This document shows positions 4,397-57,000 of a DNA stretch of 64,000 nucleotides, one piece after another. The stretch's first letter is position 1, and each line of letters opens with the position of its first letter. Origin of the DNA: Cinnamomum chago (Eukaryota > Streptophyta > Magnoliopsida > Laurales > Lauraceae); NCBI GenBank assembly GCA_038049695.1, contig CP142456.1, positions 45,240,001-45,304,000 on the forward strand, given 5' to 3'. A program made the position numbers and the translations under genes. Below the pieces are notes generated by a model. That model had not been told where the DNA came from, did no database searches, and worked only from the letters and a program-made list of their open reading frames with translations.

Positions 4397-4541
4397 ATTG
4401 CTGTAAAATAAAGAGTTAGTACACAATAATCATGGTACAAGGGTTTCTAAGGTCTTATACCAACGAATCTATCAAACTCACGAATCCTCGCCACGTTCCT
4501 AAGACCTTTCTAGTTTCTTTTAAGTGCCTGAAACATGTCTC

Positions 4542-18635: not shown

Positions 18636-19467
18636 TTTACAAATATAGTTTTCTCAAAGAAAGTGTCTTAACAAAAGAACACTCTAAGAGATTACAATTT
18701 AAGCTCAATGGAATTGCCTCTTGAATAGGCTAATATGAAAGTGAAATACAAACTCACACAAACACTCTATGTATGCAAAAGTGTATGCTCATGATGTGTG
18801 TGTGTGATGACTTCAATCAATTTTAAAATGAAGGCTCATTCATATGTATGCTCAAAGCATTTCAAAGTTTAAGACATATAAAAGATTTGAATGAAGTCTA
18901 ATGCAAATCACATGTATGTTTAATAACTTGTTTATGATATGAAAATCAAGAATCACAAGTTGTAAGAAAAAAGACTAACTTAGAACATGTGATGCATGTG
19001 CAATGTTGTTTTCAAAAACAAATAGATTTTACTAATGTTTAAATGAATGAAAACAACAAGCAAGTTTCAACCAAGACAAAGAATCATGCATTAAAGGAAA
19101 TCAAAGACTTTGGCTAAGCATGATTAAATAAGTTTTAAAAACAACTTGGATTGAAACCTAATGTGAAGAATCCAATCTTAATTAGACCAAAGATTAGAAG
19201 AAGAAAGGATTCTACACATCATAGTTATCATGTACAAAACCATTTACCAATAGCTTAAGCAAAACATGAAAACTATGATTAACAAAAGGTAGAGCTTACT
19301 TGGTTGTTTAACTCATTGATCCAAGCTTTAGCTCTCCTAATGACCTTCTAGCCTTTCCAACTTTATCCCCTTTCAATGGCTCCAAAATGCTCTCAAAGGT
19401 TCATGGTTCAAGCCTTGAAAAAGGTTGGAAATGAATGGACTTTATAGCCAAAAAGTTGCCAACGGCT

Positions 19468-19610
19468 AGTCCTCGGTCGACCGGCAAAGAGGTCTCGGTC
19501 GACCGAGAAGGCACAACGGTCATATTTCTGACCGTTGGGGCTTCAGAACAGGATTCTGTCCATTTGCCCTGCAGTGGTCTCGGTCGACCGAGACCCAGGT
19601 CTCGGTCGAC
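19468..19610. repeat. Palindrome array, GTCGAC core (solo LTR F)
   Basis: Four copies of CGGTCGACCG, in contexts CTCGGTCGACCGGC, CTCGGTCGACCGAG (twice) and CTCGGTCGACCGGC, in two pairs about 95 bases apart. The middle two extend to the 14-base perfect palindrome CTCGGTCGACCGAG. Position is about 500-645 bases from the LTR 5' end. Confidence 0.85.
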
Positions 19611-20117
19611 CGGCGACACTGCCGGGACACCCCAAAAATTCCAACTTTTGCATTTTGAAGATTTTCTTTGTGGAATTTTGTGGGTCACTAAACCAAGCTT
19701 AAAAACATGTTTTAAAACATTTAAAAACATGAAACACACAAAGCCTAAAATGATTCAAAGGTTTAAAACCAAAGGCAAGCTTGATTAGTAAAAACTCTTT
19801 TCAAATCAAATTGCATACAAAACTGATTCTAAAGGTGCTGAAAGTATGCAAACCTCAAACCTAAATACCTAACATGATTTTCCAAAAGTAGTGCACAAGG
19901 AAATAGGTTTTCAAAAAGAGTTTGGGTTTCAAAACCAATGCATCCAACTTAAAAACCAAAACATGCATAAAGCAAAGACTTTTCCAAATCTTAAAAGCTA
20001 TGCATGTATAAAACTAGATTTCAAGGTTTTCTAAAACAATGCTAGTGTGTGAATCCAAATGATGCTAAAGTGCAAATGCATCCATCAAATTGCAAAAACA
20101 AAAGACCTAACAATGGG

Positions 20118-23485: not shown

Positions 23486-24722
23486 TGTTAGACCCCGACC
23501 CAGACTAATTCGATTAGTGTGCGATTAGTGTGTGTTTAGTCCTATGTGGGTTTAGTTGTTGTTGGGTTAGAAATAATTACTTTTAGTCTTGGACATAGCT
23601 TTGGGAATTTTGAGAACGTTTAGTGTTAGCCAGACATGCTCAGGAAGGCCTGAGTGTACGTGTAAGCTTGGGAGGATCGTGTTGGTTTCCCATTTTTAAT
23701 TTTGATTTCGATTTCAATTGAATGGTTTTATTATTTGTTATAACTTTCGTTTTCAGCCCATTCACGTTTGAAGCCCAAAATCCAAGTTTTGACCCAAAAT
23801 GGGTAAAATTGTCTTTTATACACAAATCTGGACACAAATTTCGAGATCTCAAAACCATGTCAAAAATATACTTTTTGGAAACTAAGTTTTTCAAGGATCA
23901 TTTTATCCTTCTTCGTCGGATTCACTCGAGGCTCGCAAGATCATGTTTTTGTCAATGCAAGGTTTAGGCTCATTGGGCCCCATTTGCAAGTGTTTAAAGT
24001 CAACTCTATCTCTTTTCACTCTTTTCACTCTCAAACCCTAACCCTTGAGCACCAAGAAGAGAAAACCCTTTCCCCTTTCACTTTCTTCCTCTTGAATGCA
24101 CAAGCTAGAAGACTCTAAATGAAATTTCAAGACCATCATCTTTTTCCTCTCATCCCAAGCTTTCCATTGATACAAGTTTCTTGAAGTTTCTAGTTGGGCA
24201 AGCTCTTCATTTTCTTCCTTCCCTCTTGGTTGTGCATCTCTAGGTAAGAACTCAACCCATCTTTTTAATGGAGCCTTTTTGGTTCCTAAAGATTTAGTTT
24301 TTCATGTTTGCAAACCCCTTTTGTGAAAATGGGTTTCTTGTTTTCAAGTTTGAGTGAGTTTTGAATGGGTTTTCATGGGTTTTGTAGTCTTTGGGCTTAG
24401 CTTGAGTGGAAGTACTTGAAGAAAGGTTTGTGGCATCTTGGACTAAGGCAAGTAACCAATCTAGGATGGATGATAGCATGTGTGCATTTGATTTGTTTTC
24501 TTTTCATTCTTCTCATTCATTGGAAATTTAAGTCTTGAATGGAAAATTTGGAGATTTTGTGTTAGATTGGAGAATGGGACTGTAATGTCTCAATTTGTGC
24601 TATGAAATGTGTGTTTTACCCCTTGGAGAGCATGTAGGCTCAGGGAAGTGTAGGTTGAATGAGAAACAAGAAGAAGGGGAAAAAATGTGAAAATCTGAAT
24701 TGAAATGTACTTTCCGTGCAGT

Positions 24723-25033
24723 TTCGGTCAACCGCTGGTCAGCGGGCGCCTAGCCGAAATCGAGATTTTGGCTAACCGCGAGCTGACCGAGCTCGGCGGT
24801 TCCTTTTTCTGAAGCTGGCATGTGCATCAGGGTTCAGCGGTCAGCCCTACGGTCAGCTTACGGCTAGCCGCCAGGTCCCATTTCGGCTAACCGCAAGCCA
24901 ACCGACGTCAGTTAGGTTTCTTTTCCAGGGAGCTGTGTTTGGACCTGGGTTTCCAGTGGTCGGCCTATCAGTCAGCTGGCGGCTAGCGGCCAGATCCTAG
25001 TTCGGCTAGCCGACATCTGACCGAGAGCTAACC
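24723..25033. repeat. Palindrome array, GGCTAGCCG / GGTTAGCCG type (gypsy-1 3' LTR)
   Basis: Many copies of CGGCTAGCCG-like or CGGCTAACCG-like sequence (TTCGGCTAGCCG, ACGGCTAGCCGCC, GGCGGCTAGCGG, TTTTGGCTAACCGCGAG), mixed with GGTCAGC units and both orientations of AGCCAACCG/CGGTTAGC. It occupies 1,240-1,550 bases from the LTR start, the same slot as the TCGA-type arrays in other LTRs. The only other array of this type is in LTR D4 (56600-57000). Confidence 0.75.
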
Positions 25034-25585
25034 GAATTTGACACCATTGCCCATTTTGAAGAATATTTGTAAGAATGAAAACTAGAACATGTTAAGTGAC
25101 CTTTAGCCTGATATTGTGCATTCGAAACCTGAGATGTCTTTTTACTTTGGGGGCATCGATTCTCTTTTAAATTCCAACATTTGGGTTTCAATTACACAAT
25201 GATCAATCAAAGGTCCTTACATGTGCTTGATAGACCTTGCGTTCGTACTTTAGTTTTAATACAATGAATATCATTGTGTACTCGTTTTGAAGTTTAAGTA
25301 CAAGCTCGTTTTGAAGATTTATTTCAAGAAAAAGGGGACCACTTCCTAAGCTTGTTATGCATATTAATTATCTCTCTTGTTAGCCGTGTTTGTCTCGTTT
25401 TGATAAGTGATTCCCCTCTTAAGTTCGACTTGTTTAAGCCGTGTTTTGTTGTGTTTTATGCATTCATGAATTTAAGTGAACACCACTGAGCTTGGACTGC
25501 CCTTTCAGTTTGATCCACCGTCTGGGGGTCCTTAAACATGCGGACTGTCTGCAGACTGGTCATATATTTTATTACACATCGTGCG

Positions 25586-28512
25586 TGTCACGTCCCCCGA
25601 ACCCAATTAGAAAATAAACCGGATCCGGGGTGTGAAATTTAAGACTAATTAAAATTTGTCCTTTAGGCCCAAGGATCGTAACTCCGCTGTGAGGATATAA
25701 TATTTCAAGCCTCAAATAAAATAAGAATTTACGGAACTCATACAATTCTAGGCATATTTGGATATCAACAAGGAATAATGAATCTCAATATAGATTAAAG
25801 TTGAACAAAGAATAAAATAAAACTTAAACAAGGAAATTGATTTATTCAATGGCCATCCCACTAATCAAGGCCATTTAAAACAATAGTGAAGTCAATAGTG
25901 TAAAAGTTCAACAAGAGATAATAAATGAAGAAATAAAATATAGGGAAGTCCCGACGAATCGCTCTTGTGCCGGGAATGATGACGCTACTCTACGTCATCG
26001 GCACGCCACTCTCGTTCCTCCTCAACTGGTTGGAGATCCTCTGGGATCTCCTCACCTGAGGAGTCTGCACACCAAGGAACAGAGTCAACGACATGTTGAG
26101 CAATAGATAAGCAAGATATAAATAATCATGACATGCATCAAATATAAGAGTAATGACAAGTACAAGATCGTAGGAATACAAGGAATAATATTAGGCATGT
26201 AGCAGGAGTAAATAACCATCAGAATCATAAATAGAAATCCTAGCCATATTGACAATCACCACTACCAATGTAATGCAATGCACAAGAGGGAGACTCCGTG
26301 GATGTCCAAGCCACCTCACGGGGTACCAGTAACAATCCTATCCGGACTACTGATACCAAAGTCCGGCTCCAGGGGGATCCTAGCTCCCGGTCCTGGGAAT
26401 AGTAGCACGGTCCCAGCCCGCTCCTAACTATTCAACGCCATGGACGCCGTCCAAAGCCGACTGCCCACCCTGATGTCCGAGTAACCGGTCCATCAATAAT
26501 ACCCCAAACTGCAGATGGCTATAACATGCAAATAATAATAATAATAAAGTGGTGTTGACACGAGAATAGACCAAGACAAGCAGGTCTGGCTAGCTCAATA
26601 TACAAGACATGTTCATAGGGATTAACTCATTCAAGTCAATATAAGACAAATCCAATCACGTGATAATCCCTTCAGTCTAGCCAGTCATTTTTATTAATTA
26701 TATAACACGGGGTCCTAAGGTACACTCTAAGTCAGGTCCAAGTCCTAATTCTACAAGAGATTATGTTTCATAATTAATTAGGTGTATTATGCCGAGAGTG
26801 AGTGTACAAGGATTTATAACAACGGATACGATTAAATAAATCAAGGAGGAATTACAATCCAAACCTAGGCAAGTGGTGTCATCCATGTATCCTACATGTT
26901 CTATTGGAGTACGTGTGGAATTGGATCAACGATGCTTCTAAGGAAATCCCTTGGTGTACAATCATGTTAAGCATCCATTAATTCAGTTCCATACGCATTC
27001 GGTTACCCATGTTTAATACACGAATACCTAGACACTTAATCGAAGCACACCAAGCCACGTGCTACGATTTATTCCCCATTAATGGTCAACTGATAGTAGG
27101 TTCATGGTTTCCAACATCTAAGGCCCAAACCTAAGTTACTGGTCTCATTTCTAATAAAATATAGGTTGCGTAAATAATCTGAGTTTTTACATCACTTCTT
27201 GACCTCCGATCGTGATGAAACTAGAACCATTGGATTCTACATCTCAAGGGCTTTCCAACGGTATATAATATGTTGAAATCCGACGTACGGATTAAAAGTT
27301 ACAAGTATTTTAAGTATTTTTCCAAAGTTGTCAAAATTTACGAAACTGCCATCCGATCGATCGGACAAGAGGTCCGATCGATCGGTCTGAGATTCGTCTC
27401 AGTTAACTGAGACCAAATTAGTCCGATCGATCGGCTTGCTGGCCCGATCGATCGACACTGTAGCCTGAGCCCGAAAATGAGTTTTTTGTTTCTTTTTCCT
27501 ACAGAAAACGAGCCTCCATGCTCCCCAATCATTACAATCATCATCATTCCCATCCATTCTATCAAATTAAAAACCTCCAAAGCTACCATTTAATAATTAA
27601 TCCAATCCAAACCACAAATCTAACCTAACATGTCAATCCCAATGCAATACCAACAATAAGCTTGGAATTTGGGTAATCTTACAAGGATATCATTGCAATC
27701 AAAAGAAAACAATACACACATGATTAAATATAAAATGCATATCTACTTGCCTCAACCAAGAAGATGATTAAAAATTGGAAAAGCTTGAGGAGAAGCTTTC
27801 TACCACGAAGACCACAATCTACCCCGCTCAAAAGTAATCTAGATCACCCAGAAGAAGAAAGAAAGGAAAAGATCATGATCCAACCTATTCTAAACAAAAG
27901 AGAAAACGAATGGAAAAGTTGATGATGAGAAAAGACTTACCAACTAGTATCAATGGAGAGAGGAGATCGAAAGGAAGAAGATGTGCGGTTCGGATCACGG
28001 AGGTGATCTCTCCCGGAGGGAGATCTGGGCTTGAGAAGATGAAGAGGGAGAAGGAGGGCTGCTGTAGCTTCGTTGCAGAAGTGAGAATGAGATTAGGGCT
28101 AATCCCTGTTTAAGAAGAAGAGAGGGAGGAAAAGACCGAATTGCCCTTTAAGTGGGTCCGGTGAAAGAATGGACCATTTGAAGGGTTTCTGATTGTCGGA
28201 TCGCAATGAACCGGAAGACAAAAATGATCAGCGCGACAAGACATTTCCAACGAACCCAAAATCACGGAGATAAGAATTTTTCCGGAAAAACACTCAATTT
28301 TCCCTAATTTGCAAACTACCCCCTTCTAGGATCAAACGAACTCGAAATCAAACGAAACTTCGCAGACACTATCCTAACACTAAAAGAAACTCACTCAAAG
28401 CCTAAACCCACTTAAATATCTAAAATACAAATAATTATAATAATAATAAAATAAATGGGTCAACGAGCCTGCTATTGGGCCCAATTGACCCAGTAAAGTT
28501 GCGGACCTTACA
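25586..28512 (-). repeat. Solo LTR E, 2,927 bp, TSD GTGCG
   Basis: GTGCG at 25581-25585 and 28513-28517 flanks ends TGTCACGTCC (25586) and GGACCTTACA (28512). Removing it restores CATCGTGCGTGTTCGG, matching gypsy-2's LTR. Minus orientation is inferred because the minus strand starts TGTAAGG like other gypsy LTRs here. No primer site or coding region. Contains a GATCGATC array (27352-27462) and AAT-type microsatellites (about 26529-26548 and 28430-28452). Confidence 0.9.
27352..27462. repeat. Palindrome array, ATCGAT core (solo LTR E)
   Basis: Four copies of CCGATCGATCGG (the last CCCGATCGATCGAC), at spacings of about 23, 50 and 20 bases, 1,050-1,160 bases from the LTR 5' end. An additional dyad GTCTCAGTTAACTGAGAC (18 bases, perfect) lies between the second and third. 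Confidence 0.85.
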
Positions 28513-29308
28513 GTGCGTGTTCGGTTCCGCGGCCGGAATTCCCGTATTTGTGGGAATCATGTCGTGATTATATTATGTATATCGTGCTTGTCATGCGTGC
28601 TTGCTCTTTTCATTATAAATGATAGAGAAAGGATGGGCTCATTGTGGATTGTAACTATTCATAATATTATAAGTATTCATGTCAGTTTTGCTCGTATTTT
28701 GAAATGTACCTTAGTCATGTAACTATTTACAATTCAGCAAAATGTCTTTAAATGTTTCCTTAAACATTTACTACTTATATGCTCATGCCTAAATTGATTA
28801 CCTGCTAAACCGTTGTGTTTGACTCTTGTATGTTGGTGCCTAGGTGCAGGTGAAGTTGCCTTTGAGGAGGAGCGTCCGGAGGAGGCTCTTGCACCACCCC
28901 TAGTCCGAGAGTGGCAACCCGACAATGTCAACTAGACGTCGGGCGGGTTCTTGAGTTGCGCTACATTTTGTTATGGGTTTCCTTTGTCATTTTGAGAATT
29001 GTATTGGCCTCTATTGGCCTCTTATGGGATGTAACTAAACTTAACTTACTTTTGTGTTAGTCTCTTAACTTGAATTATGAGGGGAATGCCATGTTAACTC
29101 CTTTCTTGTGATACTATGTCTTGATATTATTTTGTCATAGCACTTAAAGTTTTATTGGTGCTTATCTTGATGTGACTTGCTACATGCTTCTGCAAACTTG
29201 ATCGTGTGAGACAGATTCTGCGTGTTTCGGGAATCTTCACCGCGGGAACCTGTGGGAAAACAACAAAACAATCGTCGCGGGCCCGGGATTCGTTTCGGGG
29301 TCGCGGCA

Positions 29309-39227: not shown

Positions 39228-39300
39228 CAGGGCCCGCTTGAGCGGCCCAAGGCCCACTTGAGCGGGCTGGGTTGCTGCCCGGGTCCGCTCGAGCGGGCCG
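39228..39300. repeat. Palindrome array, CTCGAG/CTTGAG core (gypsy-3 LTR)
   Basis: Three units: CCCGCTTGAGCGG, CCCACTTGAGCGG and TCCGCTCGAGCGGG, between GGGCC-rich spacers. Small array but in the standard slot, 1,440-1,512 bases from the LTR 5' end. Confidence 0.7.
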
Positions 39301-41612: not shown

Positions 41613-42169
41613 TGTCACGCCCCCCAACCAAAACCCCGGGGCGCGAATGGGATTAAGGGTAATTATATTTTTCTTTCTCCCAAGACCCACGTGAGTGAAG
41701 ACGACACATTCCAACACACTCTGAATATTTTGTGGAAGCTTTCGTGGCGTTACAACCCGGAGTCCGTGGCCATCGGATTCCGCGTCGCACTCAACCTCTA
41801 GCATATATCTATTATGTCAAGAACCATATCAGACTGGAGTAACCATCGCAACAAAGTACAGAGCTGACTGTAACAGGATATTACATTCCCATATGTGTTC
41901 AAGTTACAATTATCAATGTACACTCAATGTCTCCACGACATAGCCGACAAAACAACCTGCAAAACATGGCTCCACAGCCAAAGAAAGCACTCATCTCGGG
42001 ACGAAGAACTCTGGACCTGAGTACCAAAAGTAGTAGGTGAGACACGACGGTCTGGCAGGTGGATGAAAAGATACTAAATATGCTGAGAATTAAAACATAT
42101 GATAATTCATGTCATTTAATCAAAGGCTGCATATAATCAAACGGGTGGAAAATCGTGGATCTCTGACAA

Positions 42170-42755
42170 AACATGTATTCGTTTAAAGTATGAGTTAAAC
42201 ATGGAGATCTAACAAAACATATGTTCATTTACATCATCTATCAAAGCATAGATATTTGACAATCGGGTGTTCGTTTAAAACATGTGTAAATATAGAGGTC
42301 TGACAAAACAAACGTTCATTTGAAACATATGTAAAAGCATGAGTATTCGACAAACCGGGTATTCATTTAAAGCGTGTGTAACCATAGAAATCTGACAAAA
42401 CAAATGTTCATTTGAAACATATATAAGAGCATGAGTATTTAACAAATCGGGCGTTCATTTAAAGCATGGGTAAACATAGGGATCTGGCCAAAACAAGTGT
42501 CATTTAAAACATATTTGAAAGCACGGATATTTAACAGATCGGGTATTCATTTAAAACATGTAAAAACATAGGGATCTGGCAAAACAAGTGTCATGTAAAA
42601 CATATTTAAAAGCACGGATATTTAACAAATTGGGTATTCATTTAAAACACGTGTAAACATAGGGATATGGCAAAACAAGTGTTCATTTGAAACATATTTA
42701 AAAGCATGGATATTTAACAAATCGGGTATTCATTTAAAACACGTGTGTGTACAAA
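42170..42755. repeat. About 92-bp minisatellite in LTR D1, roughly six units
   Basis: The marker GGCAAAACAAgTGTTCATTTg recurs near 42300, 42393, 42484, 42577 and 42669, with a more diverged unit before 42300. Each unit also holds a TTTAACAAATCGGGTATTCATTTAAAAC segment. D2 has three to four units at 49000-49365. Confidence 0.85.
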
Positions 42756-43754
42756 GAACGGGAAACAACATAACAATAACTGAATTTACCATGGAAAATG
42801 TTAACACCTATTTAAATAATAACTTTCATAAAAGAAATGAATCATTTACCGGAAAACAAATAAGCAATATAAAACATGTAGGGTATCCAAGGAATCGGGA
42901 ACTAGCAAGAAGCTAAGTCCTCTATCACTAAAGTGACAGAGCAATAACTAGGCACTGATCTCAGTCACTCGAGGTGAGGAGAAACAGTGGATCTCATAAA
43001 TACATATACATATACTAGGCACTAATCTCAGTCACTCGAGGTGAGGAGAAACAGTGGATCTCATAAATACATATACTATACATGATCACGGTAGCGAGCT
43101 GGGCATCGGGAACCACAGTAGCAATCTGCGGCACGGGACAAGACCACGGTAATAACCGGGTAGCGGGATCTAAACTGCTGGTGGCGGGACAAGACGGGGA
43201 TCTCCAAGTCGGTGGATCAGACCAACATGGTTATCCAAGCTTAGTGGTGCCAACTAATAGGTCAAATAACAATTCGAGACATGTGCAAGTAAATCAAGTA
43301 CAAATAAATAAACGGGCAGTATGGGGGTGCTCAAGGGCACACTGTCATTTCATGTCGAGCAATACATTTCGGGACAAGTAACTGTTACCAGTGTAACTTC
43401 GATGCTTTCGGGAAAACAAGTCATGTAATATAAATCTCGGGAACAGCGAAATACAATAAACAATTAAGATTTCGGGAAAGTGTCGGTTCAAGATTTATTT
43501 GAAGTGAATAGGGATCCCCGTATGTCAATCTAATAACAATTTGGTACTCTTTGAGTTTGGGGACATTCCGGGCTCCTTATACACTTTGAATTTTCAAAAC
43601 TTCAATTGACATCTTTGTGATGTGGTTTCTTTCTCCAATGGCCTCATACATTTCTTAGTAAATCTCCCTAACATAGAGGCGTTCTCAGTGAATAGTCCCA
43701 AAACGTTTAAATAGTTCATCATTGTCCCAACATAGCCTTTGACCGACAAAGCTC

Positions 43755-44025
43755 ATCGCTCGAGCGAACCGGAGAGTTCGCTCGAGCGAGGAGCTCTCTA
43801 GAATGGTTGTCTGGGTGGGTTCGCTCGAGTGAAGTTAAGGTAGCTCGAGTGAACTCATTGGCTCGAGTGAATTATTAAGTGCGCTCGAACTAGCGACTCT
43901 CTGGAACAAGTTCTGGGATGTCCGCTCGAGCGACCAAGCTACTGGAATGCTCCGAACCCTTTTCTGGACACTTCGCTCGAGCGAAGTGTCATGTTCGCTC
44001 GAGCGAACTGTCCAAAAACTGATTC
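43755..44025. repeat. Palindrome array, CTCGAG core (LTR D1)
   Basis: Five exact CGCTCGAGCG copies plus about five degenerate ones (GCTCGAGTG). Longest: GTTCGCTCGAGCGAAC and ACTTCGCTCGAGCGAAGT, 16- and 18-base perfect palindromes near 43975-44010. Ordered spacers are shared with D3, so D1 and D3 arrays are homologous. Confidence 0.85.
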
Positions 44026-46937
44026 CGGACCAGTTCAGCTCCTCTCTATCTCTTCCTTCTACAACCTCTTTTTAACCCCTTTATATACACCACAAGAGGG
44101 GCTCAAAACTTCATCCAAATCAACATAATTTTTCCAACAACATCCATTCTAACCTCCTTTAACAATATCATACTCAAATACAATAAATAGAGGGAAGGAA
44201 ACCACTACACACAAGAGTACATTTGAGATAAAACAAGGGAAAGTTAAATGCTATGAACCAATACATCTCTATGACAATAAATGCACTATCAAGGCTCTTC
44301 ATGAGCATTCATTTCAAGTCACAGTAATAAATAAGCATGTATGGAAAAACAATAAAATCAACCACATTTCTATAAAACCATATGAATAAACTTTGACCAA
44401 ATAAAATGCATACCTTTCCAAGAGATTTAACAAGAGGGAAAGACCCATTAATATGCATTTTCGAAATCAATAAAAATGTGGCAAGAAGCATATGTGAAAC
44501 GTGTATCAAATTATCAAGAACAAGTAACAAAATTTAGGATTTTCTCATAAAACTTGATGACATTCAAACCATCCATTCATCCACTTGCCTTGGGTTCCAA
44601 TTAGCTAATCAAGCTCTCCAAACATTCTCAAGCAACCATACAAGCATAGCCAAAAACCCCCAAAAACAAACCCATTTAGAATCCTAAAATGGCAATTCAA
44701 GAAAGACAAGGAAAGGGCTCAAACCAAACTAGGAAATAGAACTTAAGGGAAAGCCATAGCTCAACAATAGAAGATGGAAAGAAGTCCTTACCTCTAGGGC
44801 CATTAATCAACAAGAAGAAGCTTGAAATAGGGGCTGCCCACCTTGGTTTTTCACAAAAATAGCATCCATGGGAAGCTAGAGAGATGGGGAAGAAGATGGT
44901 ATGGTTGGGTTTCCAAATGGCAAGGGTTTCCTCCATGAATGGGGAGGAGAAAACAAGAAGAAAAGGGAGGGGAGGCTCAGTTACAGAGCTCCCCCTTTGG
45001 GCTGTAACAAATGAGGGAGAAGAGGGGAGAGTTATCTTTTTATAATGGGTGGGAGTGGGCCCCACCACACTTAAAACTTGCCAAGGGTAAAACATCAATT
45101 TCTGGGCCTCGGATGCGATCGACGAAGAAGAGGAAAATGTTTCTCATAAAGTCTAGTTTTCAAAAAGTATAATTTTGGCATGGTTCTGTGTCACGCCCCC
45201 AAACCGGAACCGCGGGGGCGCGAATGGGATTAAGGATAATTATATTTTTCTTTCTCCCAAGATCCGCGTGTGTGAAGACAACACATTTCAATACACTCTG
45301 AATATTTTTGCAGAAGCTTTCGGGGCGTTGCGACCCAGAGTCCGTGGTCATCGGATTCTGTGTCGTACTCAGCCTCTAGCATATAGCTATTATATCAAGA
45401 ACCATATCAGACTGGATTAAACCATCACAACTGTCGCGACCTCGGACCGGGCCCCCACGTGACTGATCCGGGATCGGGACATTTATTGATGATGATGAGA
45501 ACCTTACATCTGTTTAAATGAAAACATACATTTATTTAATTTCCCACAGGTGTCCGCGGTGAGGATATCACAACCATCAATGAATATGTCTTTTTAAGTG
45601 CGGAAGCGCGTAGCAAATCAAATAGTCAAACTATCCTTAGTCACGAAGATAACATCAAGTATCAAATACTGTATCAGAATGAGCAATGATCATAAGCATG
45701 CTACCTAAAAGTAAGTTAAAGTTTATACAAATATCATTTAATTACATTTCCCCAAAAATAGAGGCCAACAAGGCCAATATAGACAAAACACCAATCCAAA
45801 GAATGGTTAAACAGTTTCCCAAAATATTAAGTCTCTCATAGCAACCAAACGTCTAAATGACGTCATCAGCACACCACTCAACTAACTATTGCGGTTCTCC
45901 GACCGCCTCCTCATGCTCCTCCTCGGGATAACCAACAATGGGACCTGAGTACCAAAGAGTAGGTCAAACACGACGGTTTGGCAAATGGATAAAACACAAT
46001 GACAATATGAAAATACATGAATTTACCTCCGAAACATTTGAACCTGTTTAAATGACAATTTCTCTAAACAAGATAAAACATGTATTCAAATATGAGTATG
46101 CATCATAAAACATGTAAAGGTAACCAAGGGAACAGGAAACAATCAAGATGGCAACCACACGAAGCTAAGTCCTCTATCACCAAAGTGATAGAGCAATAAC
46201 TAGACACTGATCTCAGTCACTCGAGGTGAGGAGAAACAGTGGATCTTATAAATACATATACATATACTATACTATACATGACTACGGTAGCGAGTCGGGC
46301 ATCGGGGACCAAAGTAGCAATCTGTGGCATCGGGACAAGACCACGGTAATAACCGGGTAGCGGGATCCAAACTGCAGCTGGCGGGACAAGAGGGGGATCT
46401 CCAAGTCGGTGGATCAGACCAACAGGGTTATCCAAGCTTAGTGATGCCGACTCATAGGTCAAATACAATCGAGACATATGCAATTAAATCAAGTACAATA
46501 AATAACCGAGCAAGACGGGGGTGCTCAAGGGTACATTATCATTTCACGTGGTGCAATGCACTTCAAGACAAGTAACTATGTCAAGTGTACATCAATGCTT
46601 TCAGGAAAACAAGACATGTAGTATAAATCTCGGGATCGATAAAGTATAGTAAACAATTGACATTTCGGGTGAAGTATCTATTTGAAGTGAATAGGGACTC
46701 TGTATGTCAGTCTACTAACAATTTGGTACTCTTTGAGTTTGGGGACATTCCGGACTCCTTATACACTCCGGATTTTCAAAACCTCAAATGACACCCTCGT
46801 GATATGGTTTCTTTCACGAATAGCCTCATACATTGCTTAACAAATCTCCTTGACATAGAGGGGTTCCCAAAGAATAGTCCTAATACGTTGAAATAGTTAA
46901 ACATTGTCCCAAAGATAGCCCTGCCCAACAGGGCCCA

Positions 46938-47213
46938 TCGCTCGAGCGAACTGGAGAGTTCGCTCGAGCGAGTGGCTCTTTGGAATGGTTGTCTGGGTGG
47001 GTTCGCTCGAGCGAAGTGGAGGTCGCTTGAGCGAACTCATTGGGTCGAGCGAATTTTTAAGTGCGTTCGAACGAACAACTCTCTGGGACAGGTTCTGGGA
47101 TGTCCGCTCGAGCGACCAAGGTGTCCGCTCGAGCGGCCAAGCTACTGGACTGCTCCGAACCCTTTTCTAGACAGGTCGCTCGAGCGAAGTGTCATGTTCG
47201 CTCGAGCGAACTG
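46938..47213. repeat. Palindrome array, CTCGAG core (LTR D3)
   Basis: Seven exact GCTCGAGCG copies with three degenerate ones, including the unit CCGCTCGAGCG.CCAAG duplicated in tandem near 47103-47130 (D1 has it once). 1,350-1,625 bases from the LTR 5' end. Confidence 0.85.
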
Positions 47214-48055
47214 TCCAGGAACTGATTTCGGACCAATTCAGCTCCTCTTAATCTCTTCCTTCTACAACTTCCTTTTTGCCCCTTGTTATACATCAAATGA
47301 GGAGTCTAATACTTCATTCAAACTTCATCAAATCCTTCATCACTTCCATCCCATTCTCCTCCATCAGTGTCACACTTAATATCAAGAAGGGAAGAAAGAA
47401 AGAAACCATCTCACATAAGATACATTTGGAACAAAACAAGGAGAAATTAAATGCTATGAACCAACACTTTCCTATGACCATAAATGCACTAACAAGGCTC
47501 TTCATGAGCATTTATTTCAAAGCAAGACAATAAATAGGCATGAGTGAAAATTTATGAAACCAACCACATTTCTCATAAGATATTGAAAACTCTTAAAAGA
47601 TCATATTATCCACTTGCCTTAGGTCTCTACTCAAGCAAATCAAGCTCTAACAAGTCCTTCAAATCAAAGGTCCAAGCTACAAGGAAAATCCCAAAATAAA
47701 ACCCTAAAGAGTCAAAACATAGAATAGGAGGAAAGAAGCTTCAATAACAAGGAGGGAGATTCCCTTAAGCTAGGAGAATACCAATCTAGAAGAAGAGAAG
47801 GGTCACTTACTTGCAAGGTCCTCCAATGGACAAGGTGAGCTCAAAGGAAGTCTTGGAATGGAGGTTTTCCCCACAAAAGCTATTGGAAGAAAGCTCTCAA
47901 GGAGGTGAAGAAGGTGATGGCCTCAAATCTCTTATTGGTGCAAGCTTGGGAGTGGATTGAGGATGGAGAAGCAAGAAGAAGAAGAAGAAGAAGAAAGCGA
48001 AAACCCTAGCTTAGGCTTGTGTTGGAAAAAGGGCAATGGAAGGGAAAGGGTCCCC

Positions 48056-48062
48056 TTATAAA
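48056..48062 (-). promoter_or_regulatory. TATA box of LTR D3
   Basis: Minus strand TTTATAA in CTTGTTTATAAGGGGACCC, 502 bases into the LTR. LTR D4 has TTATATAAG at 57844-57853, 503 bases into its LTR. The equal spacing in two diverged LTRs supports a core promoter, and puts the palindrome arrays 0.85-1.3 kb downstream of the transcription start. Confidence 0.5.
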
Positions 48063-48999
48063 CAAGTGGGGAGTGGGCTCCACTACTAACCATCTAATTG
48101 GCTGAAATCATGGCTTTCGGGGCTTCTAATGAATTCGACGAAGAAGAGAAAAGTGATCGTCGAAATATCTAGTTTCCAAAAAGTATATGTTTCACTGGTT
48201 TCGGGAATATCAAGTTTTGGGTACAGATTTTGTGCACAATGACCGTTTTGCCCTCAAGGCTATGAAATCGGGTTTCGGGATCTCGAACGGGGACGAGATC
48301 AACATAAAAGTTGTAGGGATTAACAATACGAATAAGACGGGATTAAAACCATGAATGAAAAATCTCTGATAAATCCCTAAACGCATGCAAGGTCATAAAA
48401 AGGAACCCCCAAAGGGCCCTACTAACACAAAGCACTCAAAATTCCCCAAAACTATTTCAAAAGCTATTCCAAACCCAACTTAGCCAAAATCACTAATCAA
48501 GCTTAGAACTAACACGCAACTTAATTAACACTAATCGAGTTCTCTCGGGTCGGGGTCTTACAACAACAAAGTACAGAGATGACAGTAACAGGATATTACA
48601 TTCCCATATATGTTCAAGTTACAATTATCAATGTACATTAATTAAGAATCCCAAGAAAAGGCTAAAAAAGGAAAAAAAAACAAACTAATAACCACTATCC
48701 AAATGTGACGCAACTCCGATGTCACGCTCAATGTCTACATGACATAGCCGACAAAACAACCTGCAAAACATGGCTCCACAACCAACAAAGGCACTCATCT
48801 CGGGACGAAGAAGTCTGGACCTGAGTACCAAAAGTAGTGGGTCAGACACGACGGTCTGGCAGGTGGGTGAAAAGATAATAAATATACTGAAGAATAAAAC
48901 ATATGATAAATCATGTTATTTTGACCAAATGCTGCATATAATTAAGCGGGTGCAAAATCGTGGATCTCGGACAAAACATGTATTCGTTTCAAGCATGGG

Positions 49000-49365
49000 T
49001 AAAACATGAAGATCTAATAAAACATATGTTCATTTACATCATTTATAAAAGCATAGATATTTGACAATCGGGTGTTCGTCTAAAACATGTATAAATATAG
49101 TGGTCTGGCAAAACAAACGTTCATTTGAGACTTTGGTAAAAGCATAAGTATTCAACAAACCGGGTATTCATTTAAAACATGTGTAACCAAAGGAATCTGA
49201 CAAAACTAATGTTCATTTATACATATTTCAAAGCATGGATATTTAACAAATCGGGTATTCATTTAAAACAGGTATAAACATAGGGATCTGGCAAAACAAG
49301 TGCCATTTAAGACATATTTCAAAGCATGGATATTTAACCAATCGGGCATTCATTTAAAACATGCG
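49000..49365. repeat. About 92-bp minisatellite in LTR D2, three to four units
   Basis: Same unit as in D1; the GGCAAAACAAaCGTTCATTTg marker recurs near 49107, 49199 and 49287. Confidence 0.8.
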
Positions 49366-49607
49366 CGTGTACAAGGAACGGAAAACAATATAACAATAAC
49401 TTTCATAAAAGAAATGAATCATTTATCGGAAAACAAATAAGCAATATAAAACATGTCAGGTATCCAAGGAATCGGGAACTAACAAGATGGCAACCACAGA
49501 AAGCTAAGTCCTCTGTCACCAAGGTGACAAGAGTATAACGGGACGTTGGTCTCAGTCACACAAGGTGAGGAGAATCAACGCAAAGCATATATACAATATA
49601 AATATAT

Positions 49608-49701
49608 GGGACGGGACCACGGTAGCGAACCGGGTATCGGGACGGGACCACGGTAGCGAACCGGGTATCGGGACGGGACCACGGTAATAAACCGGGCATC
49701 G
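49608..49701. repeat. 31-bp triple tandem repeat (GGGACCACGGTAGCGAACCGGG)
   Basis: Two exact 31-bp units (49608-49638 and 49639-49669) and a third with small changes (to 49701). Other D LTRs have one or two diverged units at the same place (43085-43170, 46285-46370, 53515-53580, 55930-56030, and 29690-29775 in D6). Confidence 0.85.
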
Positions 49702-50504
49702 GGATCCAAACTGCAGCTGGCGGGGCGGGAGGAGGATCTCCAAGTCAGTGGATCAGACCGACAAGGTTATCCAAGCTTAGTGGTGCCGACTCATAGGTCA
49801 AATAACAAATCGAGACATATGCAAGTAAATCAAGTACAATAAATAAATGGCAAGGCGGGGGTGCTCAAAGGCACACTATCGTTTCATGTCGGGCAATACA
49901 GTTCGGGACAAGTAGCTGTTACTAGTGTAACTTCAATGTTTTCGGGAAAACAAGTCATGTAATGTAAATCTCAGAAATAAGGGAATACAATGAACTATTA
50001 CAATTTCGGGTAAAAATATCGGTTTCAAGATCTATTTAAGTGAATAGGGGTCCCGTATGTCGATTATAATAACCACTTGGTACTCCTTGAGTTTGAAGAC
50101 ATTCCGGGCTCCTTATGCACTTTACGATTTTCAAAACTTAAAATGAGCTTATGGATAGTACTAGATGCTACGATAGAAAAATCAAGACTATAAACAGTCC
50201 ATCCTAGGCATAATGTTAATCCTGAAGCGTCGTACAATCTACTCAGTCACTGAAAGGGATAGGATTTGCGATAACCAAGGAAATAGACTTCGCGTATAGA
50301 TATAAGAAGGATATCGCGTTGTCCCATACCATTCGAGATTGAAATGGATGGATTGGACTCCGATGCAACCGAACCAACCATGAGGACGTTGGCTCAAGAC
50401 ATCCTCACATATAGTCCAATGAGTCCAAAAGGGGTAGCCAAGGTCCCACCTAAGTCCATCTTAAACAGGTTGAAAATTCATTCCAGCAGGAATTTTCCCA
50501 GTTG

Positions 50505-50640
50505 TCCCGGTCGACTTGGCCTCTGTGTGCCCGGTCGATCGGCCATGGGCCCGATCGACCGGGAGTTGTAACTTAAAATGGTCACAGTATTTTTGGTTAG
50601 TGTGTCCCAGGTCGACCGGGCACACTGCGGAACAGAACCC
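50505..50640. repeat. Palindrome array with hybrid GTCGAC/ATCGAT cores (LTR D2)
   Basis: Four units: CCCGGTCGACTTGG, CCCGGTCGATCGGCC, CCCGATCGACCGGG and CAGGTCGACCGGGC. The second and third are half of one core type and half of the other; they are also reverse complements of each other over CCGGTCGATCGG. 1,554-1,690 bases from the LTR 5' end. Confidence 0.85.
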
Positions 50641-52199
50641 ATGTTCTGTTCTGCAGTGGCCTGGTCCTCCTTTTTTTCCCTCCTTCTCCAAGACATTCCT
50701 CTTGCAATAAAAAGGCCTCCTTGCCTCCCAATAACAACCATCAAATTTCTTCAACAATCACTTAAGACCCTCATCAAAACTCCAATGAACATTAAATCTA
50801 AACATCTCCTTCTTCACATTTGACACCAAACAAGGAGAAGAGTCCCAACATATACAAAGGATCATTTGAGCCAAAAATCTAGAGAAAAATAAAGACTATT
50901 GATCACATTTCCATAAAAATAGATTAGTTAGCAAAACTCTTTAAATGAGCATTTATGTCAAATCAATGCAAGCTAATAAACATAGTTATGAATGGCAAAA
51001 CCAACCCCATTCCTTATAAAACCATATGAACAAACTTTGACCAAATGAAATGCATACATTCCCAAGAGATTTAACAAGAGAGCAAGACCCATTAATATGC
51101 ATTTTCGAAATCAATAGAAATGTGGCAAGAAGCATATGTGAAAACATATATCAAATTATCAAGAACAAGTAATAAAATTTAGGATTTTCTCATAAAACTT
51201 GATGACATTCAAACCATCCATTCATCCACTTGCCTTAGGTCCAAACTAGCCAAACCAAGCCTCTAATCACACTCTCAAGCTCAAGATCAACAATCTCTAC
51301 AAAAACCCCCAAAACAAACCCTAAAATGGGTTAAACAATGAAAGACAAGGAATGAGCTCAAACCAAACTAGGAAATAGAACCTAAGGGAAAGCCATTGCA
51401 CATCAAAGGAAAATGGGAAGGGGTCTTTACCTTTAGGGTCATCAATCAACAAGAAGAAGCTTGAAATAGGGGCTGCCCACCTTTGTTTTGCACAAAAATA
51501 ACATCAATGGAAAACTAGAGAGATGGGGAAGAAGATGGCATGGTGGGGTTTCCAAATGGCAAGGTTTCCTCCATGAATGGGGAGGAGAAAACAAGAAGAA
51601 ATGGAAGGGGAAGCTCAGTTGCAGAGCTCCCCTTTTGGCTGCAACGAATGAGTGAGGGGAGAGGGGAGAGTCATCTATTAAAATGGGTGGGTGTGGGCCC
51701 CACTACACTCAAAACTTGCCAAGGGTAAAACATCTATTTGTGGGCATTGATCGACGAAGAAGAGAAAAATGCTTCTCATAAAATCTAGTTTTCAAAAAGT
51801 ATAATTTTGGCATGGTTCTGAGATCTCGAAATTTGGGTCCAGATTCAATGTGAAAAGACCGATTTTGCCCCCTCAGCGCTGGAAAACTGATTTTTCGGAG
51901 CTTCGAATGGGTACGGAGTGAACACGAAAGTTGTAGAGATTTACAAAATAAGTCAAATGAGACTAAAACAAGAATTATCGGAAGTTTCGAATAATCTCCC
52001 AATCACGCGCAAAGTCACTAAAAGAACCCCCAAAGGGTCCCACTAATCACAAAGGCACTCAAAACTCCCCAAAACTAGTGAAAAAAACCATTCTAACTCA
52101 CAAACTCAACCCAACAAACACTAATCCCACTAAAATAAACTAATCCACAATTAAAACAATACTAATCCAGGAAATTAGGGGTCGGGTTCTCACATTTTG

Positions 52200-52568
52200 G
52201 GATCTCGAAATTTGGGTCCAGATTTGGTGTGAAAAGACTGTTTTGCCCCTAACATTAGGAAAGTAGGGTTTCGGGGTCTCGAACGGGAATGAAATCAACA
52301 TGAAAGTTGTAGAGATTAACAAAATAAGGTCAAACGAGACCAAAACAAGAATTATCGGAAATTCAAATTATCTCCCAATCACGCGCAAGGTCACTAAAAG
52401 AACCCCCAAATGGTCCCACTAATCACAAAGGCACTCAAAACTCCCCAAAACTAGTGAAAAACCGTTCGAGCTCACAAACTCAACCCAACAAACACTAATC
52501 CCACTAAAAGAAACTAATCCACAAATAAAACAACACTAATCCAGGAAATTAGGGGTTGGGTTCTCACA
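52200..52568 (-). repeat. Solo LTR D1, right part
   Basis: Resumes D1 after D2, ending GGTTCTCACA at 52568, followed by ACCAT (52569-52573), the partner of ACCAT at 41608-41612. The next base begins LTR D4, so D1 landed exactly at the D4 boundary. Confidence 0.9.
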
Positions 52569-52687
52569 ACCATTGTTGCGACCCTGGACCAGGCCCGAAG
52601 GACTAATCCGGGATCGGGACACTAATGATGATAGTGTGGTGAGTAAATGGTTAATGATGTACCACATCGGTTTAATGCCATACATTC

Positions 52688-55182
52688 TGTCGCGACCCCG
52701 GACCGGGAATCCCAATCCGGGATCGGGACATTAGTGTGTAATGATTAATCAAGATGATTACCTACATCCTCCATATACAATTTATTTAATTTCCCACAGG
52801 TGTCCGCGGTGAGGATATCACAACCTTGCATGAATGTTTCTTTTTAATGCGGAAGCGTGTAGCAAATCAAATAGTTAGACTATATCTAGTCATGCAAGCA
52901 TTAACATCAATATCAAACTGTATCAGAAAGAGCAATGATCTATAGCATGTTTCCCAAAGGTTGTTAAAGTTAGACAAAATATCATTTAGTTACATTCCCC
53001 AAAATTAGAGGCCAACAAAGGCCAATATTACAAAATAATAACCCAAAGAATAGTTAACAAGTTCTCCCCAAAATGTTACGCCTCTTGGCAACCCGATGTC
53101 TACATGACATCGTCAGCACGCCACTCAACTAGAGGCTGCAGCTCACCTACCGCCTCCTCCGGCTCCTCCTCAAGGAAACCGGCAACGGGACCTGAGTACC
53201 AAAGCAAAGGATCGGACACGACGGTCTGGCAAGAGAATGACAAGATACAACAACAATAATATAGAGGAAATCTCTTGAAAAGCATATAAATCTGTTTAAG
53301 CAAGAACTCTCATAAAGCAGGTAAATCATTTGCTATAAAACAATTAAACAAGATAAAACATATGAGGTAACCAAGGAAATCGGGAATAACAAGGTGGCAA
53401 TCACATAAAGCTAAGTCCTCTGTCACTAAAGTGACAACAGTATCACGGGACGTTGATCTCAGTCACACAAGGTGAGGAGAAACAACGTATACATATATAC
53501 AATATAATTATACGGGAACGGGACCACGGTAGCGAACCGGGTATCGGGACGGGACCACGGTAATAACCGGGTATCGGGATCCAAACTGCAGCTGGCGGGA
53601 CGGGAGAGGGATATCCAAGTCAGTGGATCAGACTGACGAGGTATCCAAGCTTAGTGATGCCGACTCATAGGATAAAACCAATCAAGACATATACAAGTAA
53701 ATCAAGTACAGTAAATAAACGGGGAAAACGAGGGTGCTCAAGGCACACTGTCATTTCATGTCGGGCAATACATATCTGGACAAGTCAATGCTATTATCAT
53801 GCTTTCGGGAATTTTCTGAAGCGGATCCGATCGATCGGCCGAAATTTCTACACAGGGCCCGATCGATCGGCCCAAAAACCCTTACAGTTACTGACAGTCC
53901 GATCGATCGGTCTGCACGTCCGATCGATCGGTCTGCACGTCCGATCGATCGGACCTGGGCGCAGTGCAGGTCCGGGACTTGGATTTTTCTCCTTTTTGTT
54001 CCTTTCTTTCCAACACCTCAACCACCACATAGAACTATGATCAAGATGACTTAATTACATGCTTCCAAGACATTCAATGAGGCTATCAAGAGGTATAAAT
54101 ACCATTTATTGCAATCATGGAAAATCAATAAATGAAATCAATGAGAGCATAAAAATCCATCAATGCTACACTAAATCATTTGAAACTTAAAAAAAAAACC
54201 TCCAAACATTCACTTGCCTCAAGTCTTCAATTAATGATATTAAGCTCTATCAAGTCCTCCAAGAAATGGTCCAAGCTACAATGCAAAATCCCCAAAAACA
54301 ACCCTAAAATGGGTTACACAAAGAATGAAAATGAAAGAGCTTTCAATAATGCAAATGTAGCTTCCCTAAGGCTAGATGAACACTAATCTAGGAGATGGGA
54401 AGAATCACTTACTTGGAAAGTCCTCTAATGGCAAGAGTAAGCTTAATGGAAGTCTTGTGATGGAGGGTTCTCTTCACAAATGGTAGCAATGGAATGCTTG
54501 CAAGATGAGGAAGAAGAAGATGATCTCCACTTTGAGTTTGGTGCAAGATTTGTGGGGATTTGAGATGGAGAAGCAAGAAGAAGAAGAGAAAACCAAGGGA
54601 AACCCTAGACTCTTCTCTTGTGCTGGAAAATGATAAATGAAGTGAATGGCTAATGGCTTCTCTTGTTAGCTAAAGAGTTGGGTTGGATTGGGTCCCACAA
54701 CTAATGAAACTAAATGGGCTGATATCATCTCTCTCGGGTCCTCGGATGAATTCGACGAAGAAGGAAGAATTGTTCGTTGAAATATCTAATTTCCAAAAAG
54801 TCTATGTTTCGCGGTTTTCGAGAATATCGAGTTTTGGGTACAGATTTGGTGTGCAATGACTGTTTTGCCCTCCGGGCTATGAAAATCGGGTCTCGGGGCC
54901 TCGAATGGACACGGGATCAACATGAAAGTTGTAAGAATCCACAAGATGAATGCAACGGGCCAAAAACACAATTCACAACCAATCCGGAAAATCTCGCAAG
55001 AAAACGCAAAGCCGAAAAGGGAAACCCCCAAAGGGCCCCACAAGCTACCAATCACTCTAAAAAGCTCAAAACTAGAAACAAGGTTATTCCAAACCCAACT
55101 AGATCAAAAACACTAATCAAGCTTAGCACTAACACGCAACTTAATTAGCACTAATCGGGTTCACTCGGGTCGGGGTCTTACA
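52688..55182 (-). repeat. Solo LTR D5, 2,495 bp, TSD CATTC
   Basis: CATTC at 52683-52687 and 55183-55187 flanks TGTCGCGACCCC (52688) and GGGGTCTTACA (55182). Minus orientation. The shortest D-type LTR. Contains the GATCGATC array (53828-53955). No coding or primer site. Confidence 0.92.
53828..53955. repeat. Palindrome array, ATCGAT core (LTR D5)
   Basis: Five exact CCGATCGATCGG copies. The last three lie in a 21-bp tandem repeat (GTCCGATCGATCGGTCTGCAC). Position 1,227-1,355 bases from the LTR 5' end. The closest array by core type is in solo LTR E, not in the neighbouring D LTRs. Confidence 0.85.
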
Positions 55183-56533
55183 CATTCCTTTAATTTCCCA
55201 CAGGTGTCTGTGGTGAGGATATCACAACCATATATGAACATTTCTATTAAGTGCGGAAGCTTGTAGCAAATCAAATATTCAATTTATCTCTAATCATAAA
55301 GATCATAACACAAGTATAGTACTGTATCAGAATGAGCAATGATCATTAGCATGTTACCCAAAAGTAAATTAAAGTTTATACAAAGATCATTTAATTACAT
55401 TTTCCAAAAATAGAGGCCAACAAGGCCAATATGAACAAAATACCAATCCCCAAAAGAATGGTTAAAAGTTTTCCCAAAATGTTATCTCTCTCTCTAGCAA
55501 TCCAATGTCTAAATGACATCATCAGCACGCCACTCAACTAACTGTTGCGGTTCTCCGACCGCCTCCTCGTGCTCCTCCTCGAGATAACCAACAACGGGAC
55601 CTGAGTACCAAAGAGTGGGTCAAACACGACGGTTTGGCAAATGGGTAAAATACAAGGACAATATAATGATAAATGAATTTACCTTCAAAAGCATTTAAAC
55701 CTGTTTAAATAACAATTTTTATAAACGAGATAAAACATTTATTCAAGTACAAGTAGGCATTGTAAAACATGTAAGGTAACCAAGGAAACTGGAAACAAGC
55801 AAGATGGCAACCACACGAAGCTAAGTCCTCTATCACTAAAGTGACAGAGCAATAACTAGGCACTAATCTCAGTCACTCAAGGTGAGGAGAAACGATGGAT
55901 CTTATAAATACATATACATATACTATACATGACCACGATAGCGAGCCGGGCATCGGGAACCACAGTAGCAATTTGCAGCATCGGGACAAGACCACAGTAA
56001 TAACCAGGTAGCGGGATCCAAACTGCAGCTGGCGGGACAAGAGGTGGATCTCCAAGTCGGTGGATCAAACTAACAAGGTTATCCAAGCTTAGTGGTGCCG
56101 ACTAATAGGTCAAATAACAAATCGAGACATGTGCAAGTAAATCAAGTACAATTAAACGAACGGGCAGGACGGGGGTGCTCAAGGGCACACTGTCGTTTCA
56201 TGTGGTGCAATGCACTTCAAGACAAGTAACCATTATAAGTGTACTTCAATGCTATCGGGAAAACAAGGCATGTAGTATAAATCTCGGGATAGATAAAGTA
56301 CAATACATAATTGAAATTTCAGGTAAAGTATCGGGTTCAAGATTTATTTGAAGTGAATAGGGATCCCGTATGTCGATCTAATAATAATTTGGTACTCTTT
56401 GAGTTTGGGAACATTCCGGGCTCCTTATACACTTTGAATTTTCAAATCTTCAAATGAAATCTTCGTGATATGGTTTCTTTCTCAAATGGACTCATACATT
56501 TCTTAGTAAGTCTCCTTTGACCGACAAAGCTCA

Positions 56534-57000
56534 TCGCTCGAGCGAACATGAGAGTTTGCTCGAGCGAGGAGCTCGCTGGAATGGTTGTCTGGGTGATTTC
56601 GGTTACCTAGCGGTCAGATGGCGGTTAGCCGTCGTTGGGTTAGGCGGTCAGCCACTGACAGAAAGACAGGTTACTGGAAATGTAACCGAAATGGTTCGGT
56701 TGGCTGGCGGTTAGCCGCCGATGGGGTAGGCGGTTAGCCGCTTGCTAACCGTGAGGTTGACCGTGTTTTCAGGTGGAAAATGTTGCTCTCTGGAGAAGTA
56801 ACCGCAATGGATCGGTTGGCTGGCGGTTAGCAGCCGATGGGTTAGGCGGTTAGCCGCTTGCTAACCGTGAGGCTGACCTTGCTTTCAGGAGGAAAATGTT
56901 GCTCTCTGGAAAAGTAACCGCGACTCTTCGGCTAGCTGGCGGTTAGCCACCAGTCACCAGACGGCTAGCCGACAGGTGACCGCTGGCTGACCGCCAAGTG
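56534..57000. repeat. Mosaic palindrome array: CTCGAG then TAGCC type (LTR D4)
   Basis: At 56534-56575 there are two CTCGAG units (ATCGCTCGAGCGAAC, TTGCTCGAGCGAGG) with the same spacers as D1. After GGAATGGTTGTCTGGGTG, where D1 and D3 continue with TTCGCTCGAGC, D4 changes to GGCGGTTAGCCG, CGGTTAGCCGC, GGCTAGCTGGCGG and similar units to about 57000. An internal segment of about 120 bases (56695-56885) is itself tandemly duplicated. Confidence 0.85.

Follow-up and report, generated by a model that had tools for sequence, protein, structure and literature searches.

The window analysed here, 64,000 nt of Cinnamomum chago DNA (contig CP142456.1 of assembly GCA_038049695.1, positions 45,240,001 to 45,304,000), is made up of nested plant long terminal repeat (LTR) retrotransposons, as mapped from target-site duplications (TSDs), polypurine tracts (PPTs) and coding strands. 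At a slot within these LTRs lie arrays of short palindromes, the subject of this study (Table 1). Domain searches identified Retrotrans_gag, RT_RNaseH and Tf2-type integrase SH3 in the coding pieces of element A, placing it in Ty3/gypsy (two of nine open reading frames had no family). The C and U5 elements carry Integrase_H2C2 (an integrase zinc domain) and are 72–75% similar in DNA to the coding part of element A; solo LTRs were classed as gypsy-type through LTR similarity alone. The element around 15–23 kb has a copia gag. Among the named gag matches, 10 of 11 were avocado (Persea americana) proteins and one was labelled Streptomyces. A first-pass annotation had assigned all clusters to gypsy LTRs, which is right for most, but the cluster at 19468–19610 sits in a solo LTR that is nested in the copia element and has a Sirevirus-like layout.

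All 11 clusters contain palindromes of the kinds that the annotation described, at the coordinates it gave, although it spoke of ten while listing eleven. Its claim that a single core dominates each cluster holds in general; the U5 cluster is a hybrid of TAGC units and two CTCGAG units, and TTCGAA is one more TCGA-centred core. As a rule an LTR holds many copies of a single palindromic motif, least clearly so in C and H, and the longest palindrome among the LTR pieces, a perfect 24-mer, belongs to array U1. The palindrome arrays exceed chance: the window has 51 perfect palindromes of at least 12 bases compared with a mean of 17 in 20 window shuffles, and 25 of the 51 sit within the 2,257 bases of the 11 clusters, for which the count in 200 dinucleotide shuffles averaged 0.8 and never exceeded 3. 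Across the 1.06-Gb assembly (14 contigs), TCGCTCGAGCGA, CGGTCGACCG and CCGATCGATCGG were found at 20,150, 48,732 and 15,936 sites, versus 5, 368 and 24 for the respective reversed controls. In a viral collection, two-copy core patterns matched in 6, 0 and 2 contigs with no gypsy relative there; the viewed 320-nt stretches of the six CTCGAG matches came from contigs of 58–68% GC, and one (L004) had some further such words.

Genome copies of five families were collected by searching with sequence flanking the slot, not with the array, and the best-scoring copies were used, hence near relatives. The array type was constant within the family in 99 of these 102 copies. The U2 flank led to CTCGAG arrays at 29 of 30 loci (the window locus included), the U1 flank to CTCGAG in 19 of 20 copies (none in L175), and the U3 flank to at least two GTCGAC palindromes in all 20 copies fetched, out of 39 besides the window. 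For U4, ATCGAT was present in 12 of 12 fetched copies; the first ten 421-bp slices had come without an array owing to a loss of ∼0.5 kb next to the slot in U4 itself. The U5 flank recovered the TAGC type in 19 of 20 copies (not in L128) and at least one CTCGAG in 19 of 20 (not in L119), and since both occur together in 18 of 20, the hybrid array is a trait of the family. A search with the exon-1 block found a CTCGAG palindrome within reach in 26 of 30 cases, the others being L054, L055, L065 and L069. A candidate slot swap within the U2 family (L033) was rejected, as a nested LTR splits its array. Copies of the young U4 family are 97–99% identical; a primer-binding site of the tRNA-iMet type, which the G and C elements have, was found beside none of the 15 readable LTR ends (16 fetched), so that these ends belong to solo LTRs or 3′ LTRs, with no 5′ LTR among them.

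Comparison between families revealed a mosaic. U1 and U3 are mostly 80–95% alike on both sides of the slot, but the slot and ∼200 bp before it cannot be aligned (38–53%), in line with the earlier remark that related LTRs have different cores. U1 and U2, conversely, are unlike at both ends but 77–93% alike through most of the slot region and for a further kilobase. For U2 and U5, identity is 87–95% over the first 400 nt, 65–69% over 500–1100, 49–56% before and in the slot, and mostly 81–94% beyond it. With slots that cannot be aligned between otherwise similar LTRs, the mosaic implies that the slot is exchanged as a cassette. In composite D, a single TSD (ACCAT) encloses two LTRs that nevertheless belong to different subfamilies with different cores; D may have arisen by template switching or by recombination of DNA.

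Cassette swapping might also reflect escape from homology-based silencing, with the structured, CpG-rich slot acting as a hot spot of small RNAs and methylation, for which maize Sirevirus palindromes provide a precedent, as cited elsewhere (PMC5311732, PMC10760457). The slot and the stretch upstream of it are the least alignable part in both U1 versus U3 and U2 versus U5, as this would predict, but the constancy of cores in the sampled copies runs counter to it, and silencing would account for variation rather than for palindrome retention. We regard this explanation as rather unlikely. Copies further differ by gains and losses of ∼20–22 bp, the size of one unit, and in locus L156 the spacer separating two palindromes is inverted (seen in one of eight scored U1-family copies, 0 of 19 in the U2 family and 0 of 5 in the U5 family). 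Both features would fit a mutational by-product, with functionless palindromes arising and being tidied through hairpin-driven template switching and through duplication and inversion of units. Such a process would hardly put the slot at a similar place in diverged families or yield the same few cores across families, the narrow pair spacing and the two-fold lower non-CpG variation described below, and of all the explanations considered it strikes us as the least probable.

The cores are not private to families. CTCGAG is common to U1, U2, E and C; GTCGAC to U3, H, the copia-nested solo LTR and loci L152–L155; and ATCGAT to B and U4. The proposal that cores mark an element's own kind is therefore not supported: with few cores common to many families, a host partner that they all share is more plausible than tags for single families. 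Loci L152–L155 (contig 1, at about 9 kb, 1.33 Mb, 0.78 Mb and 2.06 Mb) are additional GTCGAC arrays with pairs, several of them bounded by CAGTGT..ACACTG.

The array unit is often a pair of palindromes ∼21 bp apart. Adjacent palindromes in the window arrays are mostly separated by 20–25 bp, and among the matches listed on contig 1 (∼50 sites for each of three cores, of unknown relatedness) all 37 intervals shorter than 30 bp measured 20–23 bp. To these we add a set of 29 pairs, 16 from nine window arrays and 13 from six loci (of ten window arrays given, A yielded none; C was left out), in which the distance was 20–22 bp in 24. The nine outer-flank bases of the 29 pairs are complementary at a mean of 4.93 of 9 positions, compared with 3.72 ± 0.22 in the permutation null (0 of 5,000 permutations); the spacers are thus not unrelated, as they had first been called. 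As E, U1 and U2 are related, and likewise U3 with L076 and L089, the effective number of pairs is smaller. The narrow pair spacing reads more like two turns of the DNA helix than like a free RNA loop. Helical phasing across the whole array was considered and found unsupported, the narrow spacing being restricted to pairs.

With orientation set by TSDs, PPT and coding strand, the slot lies in the main 1.05–1.8 kb from the LTR 5′ end, as initially described. A block common to nine LTR pieces contains a TATA-like site around position 500, followed by a CT-rich stretch and then a donor-like GT. The suggestion of a TATA box about 500 bases in is sound for U1 and U5 (7/7 matching positions) and for U2 and F (6/7); in A, B, C, U3 and U4 the match is only 5/7 and its location varies. 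By plant weights, the donor-like GT ranks first among the 56–264 GTs of a piece in seven pieces and second in U2 and U5. It is intact in 29 of 29 U2-type genome copies, in which other 8-base words are equally conserved (11th percentile), and the slot begins 457–790 nt 3′ of it in all eight gypsy-type LTRs having both. Beyond the slot, a conserved acceptor-like AG can be aligned in 8/8 LTRs with a modest score (rank 2–28) and is intact in 27 of 28 copies, and the acceptor-like CAGs before two gag starts rank 2nd of 62 and 18th of 156. The second TATA box of U1 recurs in 19 of 20 U1-family copies, and most copies of the U2 family have a comparable site. As the annotation had it, arrays lie downstream of the TATA-like site, and also of the donor-like site, in gypsy-type LTRs; in the copia-nested solo LTR and in L155 (one of the four further GTCGAC loci read), however, the array is just 5′ of the TATA box.

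Given its place 3′ of promoter-like and donor-like sites, the slot of gypsy-type LTRs is probably transcribed and perhaps intronic. No spliced retrocopy was found among the 40 scored out of 6,962 candidates. The idea of a coding exon 1 that shares the frame of the conserved tail was rejected, since several families have stops there and no shared start was seen. Behind the acceptor-like AG, 6 of 8 LTRs have an open frame (55509–55600 of the window in U5, minus strand, with equivalents in G, A, B, C and U4) that ends in the common tail EW(R/Q)(A/P)(D/N)(D/N)V(x)-stop and shows third-position-like changes; it may encode a small protein within the LTR or mark a stretch conserved as RNA.

In retroviruses the packaging signal is often found past the splice donor, and the arrangement of slot, donor-like and acceptor-like sites would suit an RNA element retained only in unspliced full-length RNA, whose self-complementary hairpins aid dimerisation, packaging or export and whose cores influence which RNAs pair, in a few broad classes only. 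Folding is consistent with this. Strong structure is predicted for the RNAs of 11 slots (z −3.1 to −11.9), although the 150-nt LTR windows B 2401, U3 451 and U4 1, outside the slots, also reach z −3.7 to −4.0. Ungapped hairpins scoring at least 12 number 14 in 2,917 slot nt versus none in 52,000 other window nt (500-nt pieces), and those scoring at least 10 are present in 10 of 11 slots, the exception being C. The U3 arms GGTCGATCGG and CCGATCGACC pair with each other though they are not self-palindromic, and the complementary pair flanks suit an RNA stem as well. In silico, like cores cofold with a mean of 11.6 kcal/mol and unlike cores with 5.1 (13 and 23 pairs), which follows almost by construction from palindromy.

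The dimerisation or packaging tag of the first-pass annotation is only partly supported. It can claim a slot that a 5′ RNA would carry, by its place 3′ of the likely promoter, predicted RNA structure and preferential like-like cofolding in silico. The substitution patterns did not lend it support. Stem mismatches in the sense RNA show no G.U excess (25 G.U versus 39 A.C unique contexts, p = 0.10; 33 versus 83 cells; 81 copies of four families), nor do palindromes of the U2 family (20 G.U versus 24 A.C events). Compensatory change, proposed as a check on maintained palindromy, is rare: both hairpin pairs were kept in 4 of 211 unique broken-palindrome cases and in 4 of the 25 in which the two arms had both changed. 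As dead copies drift neutrally the test has little power, but an RNA role gets no help from it, and the missing G.U bias is as expected under function at the DNA level. An RNA element is likewise at odds with cores common to several families, with the array 5′ of the TATA box in the Sirevirus-like solo LTR, with the lack of spliced retrocopies among the candidates inspected, and with composite D, whose union of LTRs of two core types means that unlike-core RNAs may have been co-packaged. Overall we rank it second and consider it unlikely. Less likely again is the more elaborate version, a leader-intron cassette whose loss by splicing would yield the translated RNA and whose retention would leave hairpins by which RNAs are selected, by core class, for pairing and copying; unrelated element classes would share a small set of pairing codes.

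The explanation we place first, tentatively, is that the slot is a modular cis-regulatory DNA array in LTRs, bound by a dimeric host factor. Its basic unit would be two dyad sites with centres mostly 20–23 bp, or two helical turns, apart, often within a longer inverted repeat. A dimeric host DNA-binding protein may occupy each dyad, neighbouring dimers may cooperate on one face of the DNA, and the bound array could enhance or insulate transcription from the LTR promoter. In gypsy LTRs the array would work from a leader or leader-intron position 3′ of the promoter, a place from which enhancers are able to act, and in the Sirevirus-like solo LTR from just 5′ of the TATA box. Whole cassettes would be gained or swapped by recombination or by template switching of reverse transcriptase, so that closely similar LTRs can bear unrelated arrays. 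In favour of such an array we count the narrow spacing within pairs and their complementary outer flanks, the same few cores in different LTR families, the Sirevirus-like LTRs (the solo LTR and L155) with the array on the opposite side of the TATA box, and the CpG observed/expected ratio, which in 7 of 8 LTRs is raised in the slot relative to the LTR as a whole. Variation among 29 U2-family copies adds to this at non-CpG columns, where palindromes have half the variation of spacers (0.038 over 62 columns versus 0.078 over 149).

Several observations weigh against a regulatory array. With CpG columns included, the same palindromes and spacers vary about equally (0.070 versus 0.078). Five of the 29 pairs are spaced by 24–25 bp, 14 have a flank complementarity of at most 4/9, near the null, and intervals longer than 30 bp show no 10.5-bp phase (p = 0.43, n = 28 listed; p = 0.09, n = 43 including the window). 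TAGC-type arrays are mostly looped inverted repeats and not perfect palindromes. Finally, an RNA element would equally account for the complementary flanks and the strong folds predicted for the RNA. We nevertheless rank the paired-dyad array acting at the DNA level ahead of the RNA element. If the slots are regulatory, several families of this genome, gypsy and probably copia, use one small set of paired-dyad codes, which predicts one class of host factor and offers a handle on what wakes these elements; if they are RNA elements inside an intron, they would bear on the way in which plant retrotransposons keep RNA for translation apart from RNA for copying. In both cases, cassette exchange amounts to a natural swap experiment, in which sister subfamilies have closely similar LTRs and different arrays.

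Some further features of the window were recorded. The copia element (14782–23290) has LTRs that are 99.8% identical and a gag frame (16608–17567) adjoining the 3′ LTR, with the array-bearing solo LTR in its internal region. Additional tandem repeats lie 3′ of the slot in the same LTRs (49608–49704, 53513–53579 and 42162–42746; units of ∼31 bp and ∼91 bp). An inverted pair of 1.3 kb (23–1291 and 5702–6991), 92% alike, flanks a gypsy fragment.

Table 1. Palindrome arrays, elements and candidate signals in the window (coordinates are window positions)
Feature	Position	Strand	Description
Array H	7765..7824	+	three GTCGAC cores, two within palindromes of at least 8; LTR-like stretch
Array E	8869..9149	+	CTCGAG core
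Array in nested solo LTR	19468..19610	-	GTCGAC core; two palindrome pairs 22 bp apart; 5′ of TATA box GGCTATAAAGTCC, from which the sense strand was taken
Array A	24723..25033	+	TAGC type CGGCTAGCCG; 3′ LTR of gypsy element A
Array B	27352..27462	-	ATCGAT core; in solo LTR B
Array C	39228..39300	-	one CTCGAG and two CTTGAG-type units; 5′ LTR
Array U1	43755..44025	-	CTCGAG core; two strong hairpins
Array U2	46938..47213	-	CTCGAG core; 10 near-palindromic units
Array U3	50505..50640	-	GTCGAC core
Array U4	53828..53955	-	ATCGAT core
Array U5	56534..57000	-	hybrid: TAGC-type inverted repeats, then (sense) two CTCGAG units
Element A	LTRs 9366-10419 and 23486-29306	+	gypsy; first LTR cut short
Element A 3′ LTR	23486..29306	+	PPT immediately 5′; interrupted by solo LTR B
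Solo LTR B	28511..25586	-	TSD GTGCG; inside element A 3′ LTR
E-array LTR	split at 9365/29308	+	related to U1/U2; split by element A, TSD CCAAG
Composite D	41613-52568	-	TSD ACCAT; LTR pieces U3 + U1
U1	41613..45188	-	5′-truncated LTR; left half of composite D
U3 LTR	starts 52568	-	part of composite D
U2 solo LTR	48562..45433	-	TSD ACAAC
U4 solo LTR	55182..52690	-	TSD CATTC; nested in U5
U5	starts 58353	-	3′ LTR of element at 58.4-62.8 kb; PPT adjacent
C 5′ LTR	starts 40740	-	belongs to element at 34.6-37.4 kb
Nested solo LTR	18216..20112	-	TG..CA, TSD ATGGG; inside copia element; Sirevirus-like by layout alone
Donor-like site, U2	47805..47810	-	CAA/GTAAGT (slash, putative junction)
Donor-like equivalents	A 24244 (+), B 27940, U1 44791, U3 51430, U4 54412, U5 57600, C 39965, F 63559 (+)		
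Acceptor-like AG, U2	45945..45946	-	TTTGGTACTCAG/GTCC; conserved, 3′ of slot
Acceptor-like equivalents	G 5049, A 28843 (+), B 26065, C 38250, U1 42017, U4 53192, U5 55601		
Acceptor-like CAG	4401..4402	-	4 nt before gag ATG; element with gag 3512-4021
Acceptor-like CAG, C element	37621		4 nt before gag ATG
Second TATA box	44076..44088	-	GTATATAAAGGGG; ∼80 nt before first U1 palindrome

The closest known counterpart is the repeated motif (RM) of Sirevirus (Ty1/copia) LTRs described by Bousios et al. 2010, in which each 3′ LTR has 3–14 palindromic copies of one motif per element, associated with CpG islands (PMC2829016). The RM motifs include exactly CGGTCGACCG (in Vitis) and an ATCGAT-centred one (Tnd-1); they were proposed to be regulatory and were called Sirevirus-specific by the authors (PMC2829016). 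The solo LTR nested in the copia element shares the layout of array followed by TATA box, whereas most window arrays differ in lying in Ty3/gypsy-type LTRs, 3′ of promoter-like and donor-like sites, in often forming pairs ∼21 bp apart and in being exchanged as cassettes. The CGG–CCG signature of the Sirevirus motif is present in our GTCGAC and TAGC types and absent from the CTCGAG and ATCGAT types. LTR palindromes of maize Sireviruses are small-RNA hot spots according to Bousios et al. 2016, as cited in two later papers (PMC5311732, PMC10760457). From what these citing papers convey, the maize elements have a similarly palindrome-rich, fast-changing LTR region, but are copia.

The retroviral dimerisation site (DIS) is a short palindrome near the 5′ end of the genomic RNA. 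In yeast Ty3, the RNA dimerisation site PAL6 is one 6-nt palindrome in a short hairpin (PMC11381356). The palindromes described here are similarly short and, by the promoter-like and donor-like sites, would lie near the RNA 5′ end; they differ from PAL6 and DIS in forming arrays of paired dyads with no G.U tolerance, and are known from DNA sequence alone. The intron of Ogre lies in or near coding sequence. Transcripts of EVADE and BARE1 are likewise reported to have introns in or near coding sequence (PMC12786077, PMC3735527). Here, unlike in those three elements as described, the predicted intron is in the LTR leader, around the palindrome slot. Among the matches listed from the open-licence literature, we found no palindrome arrays in gypsy LTRs. 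As far as that literature shows, what sets the present arrays apart from the known systems is their Ty3/gypsy-type LTR setting, their place past the sites resembling a promoter and a splice donor, their organisation in pairs, the fixation of an array type across each family and the exchange of cassettes.

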